Source: Pseudohongiella acticola
Lineage (GTDB): Bacteria; Pseudomonadota; Gammaproteobacteria; Pseudomonadales; Pseudohongiellaceae
Assembly: GCF_001758195.1 (NCBI RefSeq)
Contig: NZ_MASR01000001.1
Location: forward strand, 1,178,001-1,242,000
Direction of reading: 5' to 3'
DNA: 64,000 nt
The notes under the pieces are model-generated. The model was not told where the DNA came from and did no database searches. It saw only the letters and a program-made list of their open reading frames with translations. Below, piece after piece: positions 1,412-63,563 of the stretch. Each line of letters starts with the position of its first letter. Positions within the stretch are counted from its first letter, which is position 1. The position numbers and the translations under genes are program-made.

Positions 1412-2761
1412 TTAACTGTCGGAGAGGGCCTGACGATCTTCGCGCGACTGCTCGATGATGTTGAAAATGTCACGGCTCTGCATTCGCTGCATTTCCATGA
1501 TGCGATCCCAGGGCATCAATCGGGCGCGTGCCTCGCTGATGGCACCCACCAGCATGTTCTGGCCTACAGTGATGACCCACTGCCCTTCATTGACACCCCG
1601 AACACCACTGGCCATGCGGCCAGCTGCAATCACATCAATCGCAACAAAACTGACCGGCATCGGTGGTGATACTGCCGGTGCGCCGTCCACATCTGCCACC
1701 GGACGCAGTTCCTCACCGGGTGCATTCATGACATACACACCTTCAACACCGGTGCGTGGATGGCGATAAATGGCGCTGTTGGGAATCAGCACTGCCTGCT
1801 CGGTCTCGCCGTAAAGCACATCAACGTTAACGAACATGCCGGGGCGCATCAGATTGTCCGGATTGGCCATATCAATATAGGCTTCGGTACGCAAGGTCTC
1901 CGGATCGAGAAAAGGCGATATCCGAGAGATATCAGCATCCAGCATGGTGCCCGGCCAGTTCTCTGAATACAGATTCACCGACATGCCTTCGCGAATATAG
2001 TTCAGCATGCGCTCAGTCAGCAGAATCTCGATGCGCACCTGATCAACATCGCCAATCAGAAACAGCGGTGTGCCCGTGCTGGCCATCTGGCCACGCTCGG
2101 CATTACGCAGACCAACCAGACCGCTGATGGGCGCGCGCACTGTGGTATTGACCAGCTCCAGGCGACGTTCTTCCAGTTGCGAGCGTGCCTGATTTTCCTG
2201 CGCTTCGCGCAGGTCCATATTGGCGCTGGCCACGGCCACCTGCACTTCAATGGTTTCCAGATTGGCCGTTGTCTCAAGTTGTCGTTCGGTCAGCTCGCGG
2301 ACTCGTCGCGCCTGATTCTCCAGTTGTTGCAGGTTGGCTTCCGCCTGTCTCGTCTGCGCACGCGCAATGTCGAGCCCGGCGACGGCCTGCTCATAGCGTT
2401 CCACATATTCCGAATCACGTAACTGTACCAACGGATCACCGGCATTAACGTAATCGCCATTGTCGACATAGATCTCGGTGACAGGGCCGGAGACTTCCGG
2501 ATAGATCTCGGTCTGGTTGCGGGCACTGACCCGCCCGGTCAGACGCTCTTCCAATGGCAGGGCGCCGCGTTGAGCCTGAACCGCCTCAACCGCAGGAATC
2601 GTCATTTGCCGCTGCCCGCCGCCCGGGCCTCCGGGACCACCCGTATTGCCGCCCCGGCCGGGCTCAGCCGGCTCCTGGCTGCACGCTGCCAACCCTGCAA
2701 TCACTGTTGATGCCAATAATGCCAGCAGGACCGGTCGAGACTTTTGCTCTGATGTGGCCAT
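1412..2761 (-). CDS. RND efflux periplasmic adaptor (membrane fusion protein), lipoprotein
   Basis: HlyD/AcrA-type periplasmic adaptor that joins the RND pump to an outer-membrane channel. From ATG at 2761 the 449-residue product begins with a lipoprotein signal ending in the lipobox LAAC, then a Gly/Pro-rich linker. A lipoyl half-motif (EIYPEVSGPVTEIYVDNG) follows, then a long alpha-helical hairpin rich in Gln, Glu, Arg and Ala, the second lipoyl half (APISGLVG) and the beta-barrel and membrane-proximal domains. An in-frame upstream ATG at 2845 would bury the signal peptide behind 28 residues, so I reject it. The RND pump follows 30 bp downstream. Confidence 0.92.
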   Translation of the reverse strand: MATSEQKSRPVLLALLASTVIAGLAACSQEPAEPGRGGNTGGPGGPGGGQRQMTIPAVEAVQAQRGALPLEERLTGRVSARNQTEIYPEVSGPVTEIYVDNGDYVNAGDPLVQLRDSEYVERYEQAVAGLDIARAQTRQAEANLQQLENQARRVRELTERQLETTANLETIEVQVAVASANMDLREAQENQARSQLEERRLELVNTTVRAPISGLVGLRNAERGQMASTGTPLFLIGDVDQVRIEILLTERMLNYIREGMSVNLYSENWPGTMLDADISRISPFLDPETLRTEAYIDMANPDNLMRPGMFVNVDVLYGETEQAVLIPNSAIYRHPRTGVEGVYVMNAPGEELRPVADVDGAPAVSPPMPVSFVAIDVIAAGRMASGVRGVNEGQWVITVGQNMLVGAISEARARLMPWDRIMEMQRMQSRDIFNIIEQSREDRQALSDS

Positions 2762-3168
2762 GAGAGAACGCCCAAATAAAGAAAAATGATTTGACTGCTT
2801 AATACGGACGCTACCCACAATCAGTTCAAGCGCCCGTGAAATCAATCAGTTGCGTCTTGCAGATTAAACAGCACAACGCTGTTAATCCATCTTAACACCC
2901 GGCACTGGTCTTGTTTTACAGGCCGTTCATAGTATTGTGTTACAAGTGTTGTCACGATTGTGGTTATTGCCAGATTTCCGTCCCAATTCGGGCCTCCAGC
3001 TGCCCAGTGACTGCACTTGGCAGAGTTGCACCGGTAGTTTAAGTTAGCCTGTACGAGTGAAATTGGGTTTCCCGTCGGTCTTTGAGCTGATTCGTGGGCA
3101 AATCCATGGATATCGATGCATTTACACTTGGTTAAATACCCCCGATCAGGGCGGTTCAGGACATATTT
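2762..3168. other. Divergent intergenic region between efflux operon and speB
   Basis: About 400 bp without a convincing gene. It must hold the divergent promoters of the adaptor-pump operon and the agmatinase gene. I see no clear palindromic operator of the TetR type that often controls RND pumps. The agmatinase start is preceded by a modest AGGA about 7 bp upstream. Confidence 0.5.
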
Positions 3169-4116
3169 ATGAGCAGTTGGGACAACGCCTTTACCGGCAA
3201 ACCCGGCACGGGTGCCGTTAATTCACACAGCTTTGGCGGTGCCGTCAGTTTCTTTCGTACCCCCTTTGGTCGTGACCTGAGCGATATCGACGTCGCGGTC
3301 ATGGGCATTCCACTGGATATCGCGGTCACCAATCGCTCCGGCGCCCGCCTCGGCCCCCGCGCCATTCGCAACGCATCCATGTCGCTGGCATGGGAGAGAC
3401 CCTGGCCGTGGCAGACTGATCCATTACAGGCCCTGAAGGTTGTCGATTATGGTGACTGCGAGAATAATGAAGGCGGTGGCCTGCTCAGCGTCAAGCACAT
3501 TGAAACCTGGGTCAGCCAGATACTGGAAACTGACACGGCCACCCTTCTGCTAGGCGGCGATCACTTCATTTCCTATCCCAGCCTGTGCGCGCATTACAAA
3601 AAACACGGCCCGATTGCCCTGATTCATTTTGATGCCCACACCGACACCTGGCCCTCTTCAGGCAACGGCATTAATCATGGCACCATGTTCTACAGGGCTG
3701 CCAAAGAAGGCATTGTTCTGCCCGAGCACTCGGTACAGATCGGCATTCGCACCACCAATGATGACACGCTGGGTTACGACATTGTTTCGGCGACCCAGGT
3801 GCACGAACAAAGTGCAGCCGCTATCGTCAAACGCATTCGGGAAAGAGTCGGCGATCGACCCACCTATATCACCTTTGACATCGACTGTCTCGACCCGGCG
3901 TTTGCACCGGGCACCGGTACACCGGTCCCCGGCGGCCTGTCGTCGTTCCAGGCTCTGAATATCATCCGCGGCCTGAGTGGTATCAACCTCATTGGCATGG
4001 ATGTGGTCGAAGTCGCCCCTGCCTACGATCACGCCGAATTAACAGCCCTGGCCGGTGCGCAGATAGGCATTGAACTACTGGCGCTGTATGCCGAGTGCCA
4101 GGCTGCCAGATCCTGA
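3169..4116 (+). CDS. speB: Agmatinase
   Basis: Mn-dependent ureohydrolase that converts agmatine to putrescine and urea in the cytoplasm. All family metal-binding motifs are visible: GGDH (His132), HFDAHTDT (Asp155, His157, Asp159) and DIDCLDPAFAPGTGTPVPGG (Asp237, Asp239). At 315 residues it is slightly longer than the Escherichia coli enzyme. It is followed 57 bp downstream by arginine decarboxylase, which makes its substrate. The alternative members of this fold, guanidinobutyrase or proclavaminate amidino hydrolase, are less likely given that neighbour. Confidence 0.93.
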   Translation: MSSWDNAFTGKPGTGAVNSHSFGGAVSFFRTPFGRDLSDIDVAVMGIPLDIAVTNRSGARLGPRAIRNASMSLAWERPWPWQTDPLQALKVVDYGDCENNEGGGLLSVKHIETWVSQILETDTATLLLGGDHFISYPSLCAHYKKHGPIALIHFDAHTDTWPSSGNGINHGTMFYRAAKEGIVLPEHSVQIGIRTTNDDTLGYDIVSATQVHEQSAAAIVKRIRERVGDRPTYITFDIDCLDPAFAPGTGTPVPGGLSSFQALNIIRGLSGINLIGMDVVEVAPAYDHAELTALAGAQIGIELLALYAECQAARS

Positions 4117-59974: not shown

Positions 59975-61084
59975 GTGACTGCCCTGAACAAGAACGACAA
60001 CTCACCAGGACCGGCTGCTGGCAAATTTATCCTGACTGCGTTGGCAGGCATTTTACTGATGTCATCGCCACTGGCAGGGCTGGCGCACGACATGACCGAA
60101 ACCGCCCGTGAACGCATGGCATCAGGCGGCTATCTGGAAGTCATGTGGACAGGCGCTGAGCATATGTTAAGCGGTTATGATCATTTGCTGTTTCTGCTTG
60201 GCGTCATGTTTTTCCTGAGCCGCTTTGTCGATATTCTGAGATTTGTCACCGCGTTTACTGTTGGCCATACCCTGACCCTGATTGCTGCAACCTATGCCGG
60301 CATTACTGCCAATCATTATTTGATTGACGCGGTCATCGCCGTCACCGTTGCCTATAAAGGTTTCGAAAATCTGAATGGTTTCCAGCGCTGGCTGGGGGTG
60401 CAGGCACCAAACCTGTTGCTGATGGTGTTCATTTTCGGCCTCATTCATGGCTTTGGCCTGTCCGCCCGACTGCAGGAAGTCACACTGGCCGACGACCCAG
60501 CCCTGTTAAGCAAAATTCTGTTGTTTAATGTGGGTGTCGAATTTGGCCAGATTGCGGCGCTTATGGTGATGGCATTCGCCATACGCGCCTGGCAACAGGT
60601 TCGTGGTTGGGACCTTGCCAGCCGGCTCGTCAATATCGGACTCATCGTTGCCGGTGCTGCCTTGCTGATATTTCAGCTGTCCGGATACGTGCAGGACCGC
60701 AGCCTGTCACAGGACATAAGCTTTGACATCTTCACCGACCGCGAGCAGATGATGGGACAGGTGCGCCGTGCCGATGGCACTGCTCTGGTTAATACGGCAC
60801 TGTTGATAGAGCCAATTTCCGTGCCAGCTGGCGAGACTGACGATGCCACTGAGCTGAGCACCGATGCGCAGGGCTGGTTTGTCTTTAGCGGCCAGATGAA
60901 CCGGGATTATCGCTTGCAGCTGGCCGATGGCAGCGCTGCCACCGATATTGCGCTGGGCACCGTCGCCGATGCCCATCTGCATGAAGTGCATATACCCTTT
61001 TATGTTTACCTCGCTATTGCATTGCTGTTATCCGTGATTCCCGCCCGTGTATTGCGCAGGCGGGAAGCGACGCGCCAGCGCTGA
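59975..61084 (+). CDS. HupE/UreJ family membrane protein
   Basis: A membrane protein of the HupE/UreJ_2 type (metal permease-like, often a nickel or cobalt role). After a signal or first membrane segment (ILTALAGILLMSSPLAG) comes GAEHMLSGYDHLLFLLGVMFF with the His/Asp motif, then FTVGHTLTLI and FGLIHGFGLSARLQE. Six to seven helices are followed by a soluble region (about residues 225-340) and a final helix. The start is uncertain: TTG 59903 or GTG 59975 have no good ribosome binding site; GTG gives a better signal. No hydrogenase or urease genes are near. Confidence 0.8.
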   Translation: MTALNKNDNSPGPAAGKFILTALAGILLMSSPLAGLAHDMTETARERMASGGYLEVMWTGAEHMLSGYDHLLFLLGVMFFLSRFVDILRFVTAFTVGHTLTLIAATYAGITANHYLIDAVIAVTVAYKGFENLNGFQRWLGVQAPNLLLMVFIFGLIHGFGLSARLQEVTLADDPALLSKILLFNVGVEFGQIAALMVMAFAIRAWQQVRGWDLASRLVNIGLIVAGAALLIFQLSGYVQDRSLSQDISFDIFTDREQMMGQVRRADGTALVNTALLIEPISVPAGETDDATELSTDAQGWFVFSGQMNRDYRLQLADGSAATDIALGTVADAHLHEVHIPFYVYLAIALLLSVIPARVLRRREATRQR

Positions 61085-63310
61085 CGCCTGTGCAACATTG
61101 CGGATCAGCCGATCACCGGCACTCTGGGCCAGCGTAAGCAATGACTCGGGATGAAATTGCACCGCGCTCCAGGGCCTGGTTCTGTGCTCTATTGCCATCA
61201 CACAGTGATCATCACTGCTGCGCGCACTGACAACAAAGTCATCAGGCACCTGACCCGCGTGAATTGAATGATAACGCCCCGCATTAAAGGGACTCATGAC
61301 GCCATCAAACAGCCTGCCGCCCTGATGCACTATCGGCGAGGCACTGCCGTGTACTGGCCGTGACAGCAGCGCCAGGGACCCGCCCGCGTATTCGATCATT
61401 GCCTGTAAACCCAGGCAGACGCCAAATACAGGCAGGTCCAGCGTTTCGCACAGCGCCAGCGTGGTATTGCAATCAAAATCGGCTGGCCGCCCCGGCCCGG
61501 GTGATAAAATGACAAGATCAAATGCCTGCTTCTGCAATGCGGCTCGTGCAGCTTGAGGCCGCAAGGTGGTTACATCAACACCTGTCGCCCGAAAACTGGC
61601 TGCCAGTGTGTGAACAAAGGAATCCTGATGATCAATCATCAAAGCCTTCAGGCCAATGCCCGTTGCTGACGAAATTGACGTTGAACCCTTGTTCCCGGGT
61701 GAGTCCGTATTCTTCATCGCTGGTTGCAGCACTGATAGCAAGGCAGATGCTTTCAGGCGGGTTTCCTGTTCTTCCGCCACCGGATCGGAGTCCTGCAGCA
61801 GCGTCGCGCCCGCCCGCACCTGCGCCACCGCCTGCCGTATCTGCACCGTGCGTATAGTCAGACCAGTGTCCATGGCCCCATTAAATCCCAGATGACCAAA
61901 CGCACCGCCGTACCAGCAACGCGGTGTTTTTTCATGGTCTTCAATAAACTGCATCGCCCGCTGTTTCGGAGCGCCAGTTACCGTCACCGCCCAGGTGTGA
62001 GACAGGAACGCATCCAGCGCGTCGAAACCGGACTGCAATCGACCCTGCACATGATCAACGGTGTGTATCAATTTTGAGTACTGCTCTACCTGACGGCGCC
62101 CGACAATGCGAACACTGCCTGGCACGCAGACCCTGCTCTTATCGTTGCGATCGACATCTGTACACATCGACAACTCGGCTTCATCCTTGCTCGAATTCAG
62201 CAGTTGCCGGATACGATCGGCATCTTCCATTGCATCGCTGCCCCGGGCAATGGTGCCAGAGATGGGACAGGTTTCCACCAGGTCACCCAAAGACGCATCA
62301 GGCCTGACTCGCACAAACATCTCGGGTGACGCAGACACCAGATATTCCTGCTCACCCAGATTGATCAGCGCAGCATAGGGAGACGGATTACTGGCCCTGA
62401 GCCTGTCAAAAATTGTTGACGGTTGACACTGCAGCTCGGTGGAGAATGTCTGACCCGGCACCACTTCAAACAGATCGCCGCATTTAAAACGGGCCCTGGC
62501 TTTGTCGACGACAGCGGCGTACTCTCCGGGCTGATGGTCGCTGGCAACTGTGGCCTGCGTTTGATGCAGGCTGGCGACGCTGGCACAAGAACGGGCGGTA
62601 GTATCAACCTCAGGTGGCACTGCCTTGCCCTGCCGATTCAGGCCCCCGGTAGTAAACACCTGACCGGCACTATCACGACAGTAGAAATCGAAGCGGTGGA
62701 TTACACCCGCACCACTGTCACTGTCCACCGTCAGGATTTCATCGGGCAGGTACAGAACCAGGTCGCGTTGATCACTGGACCTGTGCTGGCGCTGCGTTAT
62801 CGACTCAAACTGGAATGCCAGATCATAGGCAAACGCGCCGTACAGACCCAGCAACTGGCTGTGGACGCTGGAAAAATGTGTTATCAGGCGTCGCAGAATC
62901 GAAAACACGCTGGGCTGACGGGTTCGCATCTCTTCGGCAAAAAAGCCATTCGATGTTGTCACCCTGCAGACAATGCTGGTTTCTGACACTGACTCAAGCA
63001 GATAGTCGGAGCTGTCACCAGCAAGCGCCCTGTGACATTCGTGCAACAGCAATTCACCACGCGCATTAAGCGCCTCAATACGAACTGCTTGCTGGCGGGC
63101 GGTAATACGGACAGGGGGAGTGGTAAAAACCCGTTCGTGGCGACGGTAACGGCCCGGATAATCAACGCCGCAAACCATCGCCATGCCACAATAATTGTCG
63201 AGTAGCGCCAGTCGACGGTTCATCTCTGCTTTACCATCACAGACTTGTTGCTGGTGATTGATGCGGACACCACCGGCGGTGGTATAGGTAGTCTGGTTTA
63301 TGTGATTCAC
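61028..63310 (-). CDS. trpEG: Fused anthranilate synthase TrpE-TrpG
   Basis: Converts chorismate and glutamine to anthranilate, the first step of tryptophan synthesis. The N-terminal TrpE part (about 1-540) carries CPISGTIARG, DRNDKSRVC and HTWAVTVTGAPKQRAMQFIE. The C-terminal TrpG part (about 565-745) has DHQDSFVHTLA, LSPGPGRP, the nucleophile in FGVCLGLQAM and VQFHPESLLT. Fused TrpEG is unusual in gammaproteobacteria and better known from alphaproteobacteria. The GTG start at 63310 has AGAGGA 6 bp upstream. It overlaps the HupE gene by 57 bp tail to tail. A structured leader lies upstream. An aminodeoxychorismate or phenazine-type enzyme is a less likely alternative. Confidence 0.9.
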   Translation of the reverse strand: MNHINQTTYTTAGGVRINHQQQVCDGKAEMNRRLALLDNYCGMAMVCGVDYPGRYRRHERVFTTPPVRITARQQAVRIEALNARGELLLHECHRALAGDSSDYLLESVSETSIVCRVTTSNGFFAEEMRTRQPSVFSILRRLITHFSSVHSQLLGLYGAFAYDLAFQFESITQRQHRSSDQRDLVLYLPDEILTVDSDSGAGVIHRFDFYCRDSAGQVFTTGGLNRQGKAVPPEVDTTARSCASVASLHQTQATVASDHQPGEYAAVVDKARARFKCGDLFEVVPGQTFSTELQCQPSTIFDRLRASNPSPYAALINLGEQEYLVSASPEMFVRVRPDASLGDLVETCPISGTIARGSDAMEDADRIRQLLNSSKDEAELSMCTDVDRNDKSRVCVPGSVRIVGRRQVEQYSKLIHTVDHVQGRLQSGFDALDAFLSHTWAVTVTGAPKQRAMQFIEDHEKTPRCWYGGAFGHLGFNGAMDTGLTIRTVQIRQAVAQVRAGATLLQDSDPVAEEQETRLKASALLSVLQPAMKNTDSPGNKGSTSISSATGIGLKALMIDHQDSFVHTLAASFRATGVDVTTLRPQAARAALQKQAFDLVILSPGPGRPADFDCNTTLALCETLDLPVFGVCLGLQAMIEYAGGSLALLSRPVHGSASPIVHQGGRLFDGVMSPFNAGRYHSIHAGQVPDDFVVSARSSDDHCVMAIEHRTRPWSAVQFHPESLLTLAQSAGDRLIRNVAQASALARRFPPAQYTGGNHG

Positions 63311-63317
63311 GTTGTTT

Positions 63318-63335
63318 CCTCTCGTGTCGGAGAGG
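63318..63335 (-). promoter_or_regulatory. Hairpin hiding the trpEG Shine-Dalgarno
   Basis: On the minus strand CCTCTC and GAGAGG form a perfect 6-bp stem with loop CGACAC. GAGAGG is the ribosome binding site for the GTG start 7 bp downstream. The CCTCTC arm overlaps GCAGCCT (63333-63339), which can instead pair far upstream. Confidence 0.65.
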
Positions 63336-63408
63336 CTGCACCCGCTACTATGGCGAGGCCGGAATCGAGGAGTAATCACACAGTTGGAGCAGGATTTTTA
63401 TCAAGACA

Positions 63409-63502
63409 CAGGCCGCCTTCCTAACGGGGGCAGCCTGAAAAAGACTCAGATCAGATAGTCTGATCGTATTTTTTCTGGCGGCCCTTGTTGATAAACCGCC
63501 AG
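63409..63502 (-). promoter_or_regulatory. Overlapping leader RNA pairings upstream of trpEG
   Basis: Segments in RNA order: (1) CTGGCGG at 63496-63502, (2) GGCCGCCAG at 63475-63483, (3) CAGGCTGCC at 63429-63437, (4) GGCGGCCTG at 63409-63417. 1 pairs with 2; 3 pairs with 4 (one G-U). Alternatively GGCCGCC of 2 pairs with GGCGGCC of 4, freeing 3 to pair AGGCTGC with GCAGCCT near the start codon. A weaker AGACT, AGTCT stem followed by Ts lies between (minus strand, 63442-63462). Confidence 0.55.
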
Positions 63503-63525
63503 AAATACTGTGTTTGCATGTTCAT
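63451..63525 (-). CDS. Candidate trp leader peptide
   Basis: A 24-codon ORF that starts within 2-3 bases of the predicted transcription start and stops before hairpin 3-4. Residues 6-10 read QYFWR, three different aromatic codons in a row, with the Trp codon at 63499-63501 inside segment 1. There is no Shine-Dalgarno, so it would be leaderless or start at the second ATG (63519). Only one Trp codon is present, fewer than in classical trp leaders. It may be non-functional. Confidence 0.35.
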   Translation of the reverse strand: MNMQTQYFWRFINKGRQKKYDQTI

Positions 63526-63533
63526 GGGGCGAG

Positions 63534-63563
63534 ATAATGCCCCGATTGCGGCCGGGCTGTCAA
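63534..63563 (-). promoter_or_regulatory. Sigma-70 promoter of the trpEG transcript
   Basis: On the minus strand TTGACA (63558-63563) is a perfect -35, 18 bp before CATTAT (63534-63539). Transcription would begin near 63527, giving a leader of about 217 nt. A GGGGC, GCCCC hairpin overlaps the start region (63526-63543). Confidence 0.7.

Follow-up and report, generated by a model that had tools for sequence, protein, structure and literature searches.

The gene for a fused anthranilate synthase, trpEG, in Pseudohongiella acticola is preceded by what is probably a leader-peptide-dependent translational attenuator, as judged from a 64,000-nucleotide (nt) stretch of this genome (the window; contig NZ_MASR01000001.1, positions 1,178,001 to 1,242,000) and its comparison with related loci. 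Textbooks present the attenuation of trp genes as the model of transcription termination under ribosome control, and the element described here seems to be a variant of the trp switch that has lost its transcription stop signal and acts on translation. Comparison of related loci reveals a leader open reading frame (ORF), a closed Shine-Dalgarno sequence before trpEG, the absence of a terminator, and complementarity between segment 5 of the leader RNA and arm 3 of a preceding hairpin. In the proposed mechanism, transcription would start at or a few bases from the leader AUG. With ample charged tRNA-Trp, the leader would be read through, hairpins 1:2 and 3:4 would form, and the Shine-Dalgarno would be closed by CCUCUC:GAGAGG. 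Under Trp shortage, a ribosome would stall at the Trp codon and cover segment 1, and the freed segment 2 would break hairpin 3:4, an arm of which would then capture segment 5, the anti-Shine-Dalgarno strand, allowing translation of trpEG. The transcription start, the stalling, the switch and its direction are what we infer from these features.

The leader features and the GTG start of trpEG lie between 63563 and 63308 on the minus strand, as does the rest of trpEG below these positions (Table 1). The fusion was recognized by NF010081 (979 bits) and TIGR01815 (905 bits), each over its cut-off, and the nearest named trpEG, 74% identical, comes from a Pseudohongiella metagenome-assembled genome. 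A first-pass annotation, made from the letters of the window, had described a TTGACA promoter and a 24-codon leader with a Tyr-Phe-Trp run, and both are present, at 63563-63558 and 63525-63451 (consecutive UAU UUC UGG codons). It had also named the presence of the leader ORF in relatives as a check, and the leader was found at all 14 trpEG loci of 15 Pseudohongiella-like genomes, trpEG itself being present in 14 of the 15 genus genomes and in 75 of 137 family genomes (E <= 1e-150). The single Trp codon of that description holds for the window, but within the genus it is peculiar to the window species (YFWR), as 13 of the 14 leaders carry two (12 with YFWW, one with FFWW). Across 72 family leaders, the longest Trp run is two in 59, one in 11 and three in 2; single-Trp leaders, including that of the window, are a minority in the family and not unique.

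The spacing upstream of the leader is also conserved. Among the family loci (74 of 76 gene copies, G147 and G048 being without upstream sequence), the distance from TTGAC to the AUG of an ORF containing Trp codons is 35-39 nt in 72, and 37 or 38 nt in 60 of these; the search accepted distances of 32-45 nt, and three leaders of an odd type (L025, L153 and L155) are included among the 72. Because about 0.8 promoter-like sites are expected by chance per 1.2 kb here in a consensus scan, the -35 and -10 pair is convincing only through this conservation. The TTGAC spacing, taken with the normal distance from a -35 element to the start of transcription, places the 5' end of the transcript at or beside the leader AUG, and the trpEG transcript is thus probably leaderless or nearly so, starting within about 3 nt of that codon. 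Consensus scans for promoters and terminators, taken alone, were set aside as uninformative, with chance expectations of 0.8 promoters and 1.2 terminators.

Leaders of other forms were observed in the sister genus, g4. In L129, L131, L133, L136, L137 and L139, one Trp codon lies within an aromatic run (FYFWF, RYFFWQF or FYFWLF), and the peptides of L025, L153 and L155 are of another, GW type, ending in (L)VQGWR, unlike the aromatic run of their relatives. Furthermore, two contigs titled Klebsiella pneumoniae (L048) and Bacillus subtilis (L055) both carry trpEG with a leader; these leaders resemble those of Pseudohongiellaceae (the same as L029) and Pseudochrobactrum, and the titles look wrong.

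Table 1. Features of the trpEG leader region, with positions in the window
Feature	Positions	Strand	Basis or remark
-35 hexamer TTGACA	63558..63563	minus	TTGAC spacing conserved across family loci
-10 hexamer CATTAT	63534..63539	minus	spacer 18, 4/6 consensus matches
Leader ORF MNMQTQYFWRFINKGRQKKYDQTI, 24 codons	63451..63525	minus	homologous leader in 14/14 genus trpEG loci
Sole Trp codon of the leader	63499..63501	minus	CGG (Arg) where relatives have their second Trp
Segment 1 UUUCUGGCGGUUU, 5' arm of hairpin 1:2	63493..63505	minus	fold and duplex comparison
Segment 2 GGGCCGCCAGAAA, partner of 1, or of 3 or 4	63472..63484	minus	
Small hairpin GAUCAGACUAUCUGAUC containing the leader stop codon	63449..63465	minus	fold
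Segment 3 plus U-run UUUUUCAGGCUGCC	63429..63442	minus	CAGGCUGCCC found in 14/14 of the genus
Segment 4 GGCGGCCUG, 3' arm of hairpin 3:4	63409..63417	minus	no U-tract behind
Segment 5 GCAGCCU	63333..63339	minus	complementary to segment 3, overlaps the anti-Shine-Dalgarno
Anti-Shine-Dalgarno CCUCUC	63330..63335	minus	fold
Shine-Dalgarno GAGAGG (segment 6), closed by CCUCUC	63318..63323	minus	fold, accessibility
trpEG, fused anthranilate synthase, GTG start at 63310	61028..63310	minus	profile matches

The leader RNA (63526-63290) folds at -80.2 kcal/mol, compared with -58.5 (standard deviation 4.2) for 200 shuffles (z = -5.1), and its minimum-energy fold combines CCUCUC:GAGAGG with hairpin 3:4 and with hairpin 1:2, which includes the Trp codon; this is the state A, with the trpEG site closed, that had been proposed for this RNA in the first pass. 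The two 7-bp complementarities claimed for the alternative state B are likewise exact (2:4, GGCCGCC:GGCGGCC; 3:5, AGGCUGC:GCAGCCU), and a pairing absent from that proposal was found between segments 2 and 3 (GGGC.GCC.GAAAAA : UUUUUC.GGC.GCCC, -18.7 kcal/mol). As 2:4 and 3:5 cross, state B would be a pseudoknot. In the genus, segments 2 to 5 share a near-palindromic core, GGCNGCC, because of which any of them can pair with the others; the central N is C in segment 2, U in segment 3, G in segment 4 (A in three species) and A in segment 5, so that the core centers of 2:4 and 3:5 match exactly, that of 3:4 is a wobble, and those of 2:3 and 4:5 are mismatched. No Rfam family (of 4227) matched anywhere in the window at its gathering score, and relaxing the cut-offs for the leader yielded five chance-level matches (E 0.13 to 4.7), far below gathering scores. 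The small hairpin at 63449-63465 has a perfect 7 bp; it is kept with changes in the sub-clade of the window and not in leaders of the G002 type.

Closure of the Shine-Dalgarno in the default fold, as in translational attenuators, was observed beyond the window. Its mean unpaired probability in local folds is 0.15 at the 14 genus loci and 0.30 at 34 g4 loci, compared with 0.48 for 11 other genes of the window, those among 23 in which a Shine-Dalgarno was recognized (rank tests against these 11, p = 9e-5 for the genus and 0.003 for g4, the related loci not being independent). The Shine-Dalgarno of the window itself is unpaired with a probability of 0.02 in the full-leader fold and 0.00 in the local fold, whereas in some relatives the free fold of the full leader leaves the site about half open (0.51 in G002 and G014). 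The closing stem changes in step, from CUC:GAG in the sub-clade of the window to CUU:AAG in G009 and G007, and in g4 the closing helix 5:6 is paired in 132 of 167 cells (79.0%), compared with at most 77.8% in shuffles and 62.1% in slid versions. In addition, the longest T-run within 10 nt behind 3:4 is 2 or less at all 14 genus loci, and a separate scan for terminator-like hairpins (a GC-rich stem directly followed by at least four T) found none at these loci. Both the missing terminators and a Shine-Dalgarno closed beyond the level of the 11 window genes support the first-pass suggestion of control at translation initiation, for which there are two candidate ON states.

Which pairing would open the site was addressed by two comparisons across the 14 genus loci. 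When segments were tested as duplexes against composition shuffles (significant at a fraction of 0.01 or less), 1:2 exceeded the shuffles in 11 loci, 2:3 in 12, 3:4 in 10 and 3:5 in 11; as genus duplexes, 2:5 (0/14) was unsupported and 4:5 (2/14) little supported. A partner scan, in which the best partner of each arm of hairpin 3:4 was sought between the hairpin and the start codon and compared with 200 dinucleotide shuffles, found a partner for arm 3 in 12 loci (p <= 0.05; nine at 0.01) and for arm 4 in four, and significant partners, in the genus as in g4, mostly overlap or adjoin the anti-Shine-Dalgarno. Segment 3 is invariant in all 14, though the trpEG proteins are 51-75% identical to that of the window, and 2:4 is intact, by Watson-Crick or G-U pairs, in 11. 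The pairing 2:3 is stronger than 2:4 in ten genus leaders (median gap 2.5 kcal/mol), and by 9 kcal/mol in G002, G006 and G014; in the sub-clade of the window the two are equal within 0.7 kcal/mol, which makes 2:4 with 3:5 possible there. One sub-clade of the genus (L008-L013) has a second element, CGCA(G/A)CCUUC, located about 70-160 nt upstream of the start and complementary to GGAAGG in the 3:4 loop.

A nested ON state, compatible with translational attenuation, has somewhat less than an even chance for the genus as a whole: 2:3 would form on stalling, and segment 4 with the loop (AGGAAGGC) would take the anti-Shine-Dalgarno, as in g4. Besides exceeding shuffles as a duplex, 2:3 is strong at all 14 loci (-17.0 to -22.9 kcal/mol) and is extended by a U-run and an A-run, and G004, where 3:5 is lost, has a strong 4:5 (-18.1 kcal/mol). 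The genus 4:5, however, has a central G.A or A.A mismatch and exceeds shuffles in few loci by either the duplex test or the scan, and segment 5 matches segment 3. For the sub-clade of the window, we regard the pseudoknotted 2:4 with 3:5 and the nested 2:3 with 4:5 as about equally probable.

The g4 leaders fit the nested wiring. Here, 43 gene copies gave 39 leaders (38 distinct rows), G147 (contig end), G144 (match from query residue 91), and G055 and G100 (no hairpin pattern) being left out. The partner scan reversed the genus pattern, with a partner for arm 4 in 29 of the 39 (18 at 0.01) and for arm 3 in two. Leaders of the translational type in g4 (L018, L023, L024, L026, L027, L031 and most of L123-L155) contain a covarying 4:5 helix, GAGUUGUGGCGG : CGCCAUAACUC, which adjoins the anti-Shine-Dalgarno. 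It is paired in 416 of 455 cells (91.4%), a share that does not exceed 53.1% in slid controls or 89.0% in 500 shuffles, and 5 of its 12 pairs show two-sided changes, which occur in 25 cells, cells being sequences and not events; only the share of paired cells exceeds the shuffles, the 17 pair types lying within their range (up to 18). The g4 3:4 helix, paired at 91.7%, is not above its shuffles (up to 91.7%). In all 37 g4 leaders compared (two without a recognizable segment 2 being left out), 2:3 is stronger than 2:4, by a median of 7.6 kcal/mol, which fits nested 2:3 with 4:5. These comparisons suggest that the genus of the window and g4 both rely on translational control, by different wirings. 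In genus g5, there is no clear partner for either arm (2/9 each at p <= 0.05), and a tenth locus, L014, is without the 3:4 motif. By eye, five g5 loci (L016, L112, L113, L120 and L157) show an apparent clamp on the Shine-Dalgarno (GAGUCC..GGACUC or GUCCUC..GAGGAC), and no terminator was found at these five.

Several results weigh against the switch as proposed. The 2:4 duplex exceeds shuffles in only 7 of the 14 genus loci and is interrupted by a C.A mismatch in G002, G006 and G014; 3:5 is lost in G004, is weak in G008, and is beyond a covariation test because segment 3 is invariant. In the leader of the window, arm 3 is not alone in having a partner: that of arm 4 is as strong (-19.5 kcal/mol, p = 0.04; -19.4 for that of arm 3) and lies just upstream of the anti-Shine-Dalgarno. 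The 5:6 closing stem of the genus exceeds composition shuffles as a duplex in none of the 14. When segment 1 was masked, ordinary partition-function folding, which is unable to form pseudoknots, left the Shine-Dalgarno of the window closed (0.02 both free and masked), gave unpaired probabilities never above 0.47 in the 14 loci, and lowered openness in G002, G006, G012 and G014. In a helix equilibrium model with pseudoknots allowed, stalling opens the site in 9 of the 14 genus loci, including 4/4 in the sub-clade of the window, but much of the effect persists when the part of segment 5 upstream of the anti-Shine-Dalgarno is shuffled. For g4, the model gave a closed site without stalling and an open one with it in only 12 of 35 leaders (four of the 39, without segment 1 or 2, being left out), and it was therefore rejected as evidence. 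Rho-dependent termination may also be an alternative. State B of the first-pass annotation is accordingly possible, with 3:5 kept in 12 of 14, but it has to be drawn as a pseudoknot, has a rival in 2:3 with 4:5, and masked ordinary folding fails to open the site.

The distribution of terminators in the family bears on a rival reading, in which transcription would end at hairpin 3:4 or at a Rho site in the leader except when a ribosome has stalled, closure of the Shine-Dalgarno being secondary. The T-run behind 3:4 is 5-6 in five of six g2/g8 loci, those in which 3:4 was found (no recognizable 3:4 in L030 or in three of 8 g5 loci). Terminator-like hairpins were detected at 5/6 g2/g8 loci, 2/11 g4 loci (one of the two being the 3:4 of the leader) and 11 of 16 hand-chosen outside loci, one of the 11 lying 244 nt from the start and so perhaps not an attenuator, and at none of the eight g5 and two g6/g7 loci. 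Hairpin 3:4 of the genus is strong and resembles the g2/g8 terminators, the classical antiterminator candidate 2:3 is kept, and trpLE(G) of Sinorhizobium meliloti acts by termination (PMC7298713). We nevertheless consider transcription attenuation unlikely here, since the T-run behind 3:4 is so short throughout the genus and since it leaves unexplained both the GCAGCC element beside the Shine-Dalgarno and the covariation of 4:5 in g4. That trpEG is constitutive, with leader and hairpins inherited by a decaying attenuator, is less probable still: the loss of one of two Trp codons in the window species, plain folding that does not open on stalling, and a second, ordinary trpE in the genome are in its favor, but segment 3 is invariant among such divergent proteins, segment 5 is retained in a spacer whose length varies widely, and single-Trp leaders exist in other lineages.

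Judged as a trpL-type attenuator, the locus has a leader ORF that contains a codon for Trp, the product of the pathway, has the exclusive pairings 1:2/3:4 versus 2:3 as complementarity only, and lacks an intrinsic terminator with a U-tract, as do all 14 genus loci. In a trpEG protein tree, which was rooted for drawing only and has a long branch for G012 of g1, g2 and g8 are represented by one row each. These two rows cluster with the outgroup (support 99/98), apart from the genus of the window, while g1, g5/g7 and g4/g6 form separate branches on the side opposite them; the g2 row, L030, is the only g2/g8 locus without a terminator. The simplest history would be that an ancestral terminator lost its U-tract, and the element of the window probably works like a translational attenuator and descends from a transcription attenuator, and it has no terminator. 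We put forward more tentatively, as a possibility below even chance, that two sister genera converted one ancestral Trp terminator into translational switches with mirror-image wirings, using the 5' arm in the genus of the window (3:5 with 2:4, a pseudoknotted ON state) and the 3' arm in g4 (4:5 with 2:3, nested). If the trpEG leader is indeed a translational attenuator, this family would show how an attenuator loses its terminator and comes to act on translation initiation. Leaders with a terminator and translational leaders would still coexist within the family, apparently in more than one wiring, and their homology would allow direct tests of how a leader peptide passes from transcriptional to translational control.

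A second, ordinary trpE is located directly behind rpe in the same genome (L158, G000 C1:2551500-2560500, 1616-3802), which makes trpEG an additional anthranilate synthase. At least one TrpE- or PabB-like match was found in all 95 genomes searched. When the leader was used as a DNA query against the genome, no other stretch resembling it was found, though diverged leaders could escape such a search.

Among known systems, the erm-type translational attenuators of antibiotic resistance free a sequestered Shine-Dalgarno through drug-induced ribosome stalling, whereas the signal inferred here is a lack of charged tRNA-Trp. Cysteine-responsive leaderless ORFs of mycobacteria reportedly go back to an original study by Canestrari et al. 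in 2020. As described in PMC9031893 and PMC13236596, these short ORFs attenuate translation of downstream genes; they are similar to the trpEG leader in being leaderless and in sensing an amino acid by its codons, but they sense cysteine and belong to another phylum. The general scheme of a stalled ribosome freeing the Shine-Dalgarno is also described in PMC13236596. The trpLE(G) system of S. meliloti (PMC7298713) has a leaderless trpL with the RNA 5' end at the AUG, and shares with our locus a short Trp-codon leader ORF before trpE(G) and two exclusive structures; its attenuation is terminator-based, unlike the genus of the window, in which there is no U-tract and the Shine-Dalgarno is closed. 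The actinobacterial LEU element before leuA similarly combines a leader ORF containing codons of the amino acid made with a predicted pseudoknot and pairing to the Shine-Dalgarno. There, however, it is the run of codons that pairs with the Shine-Dalgarno, and classical attenuation was considered unlikely by the authors, who favored a protein ligand (PMC1262725). A literature search found, among the papers listed, no report of leader-peptide translational attenuation of a trp gene, which is weak evidence of absence, as subscription journals were thinly covered. Variants of attenuation overlapping the ribosome-binding site have been proposed from comparison by Lopatovskaya et al. (2010), as mentioned in PMC4833913, and like the element before trpEG they concern leader-gene attenuation of amino-acid genes at that site. 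Translational attenuation by a leader ORF is thus already known elsewhere, and the trp version proposed here would be a new variant of it.

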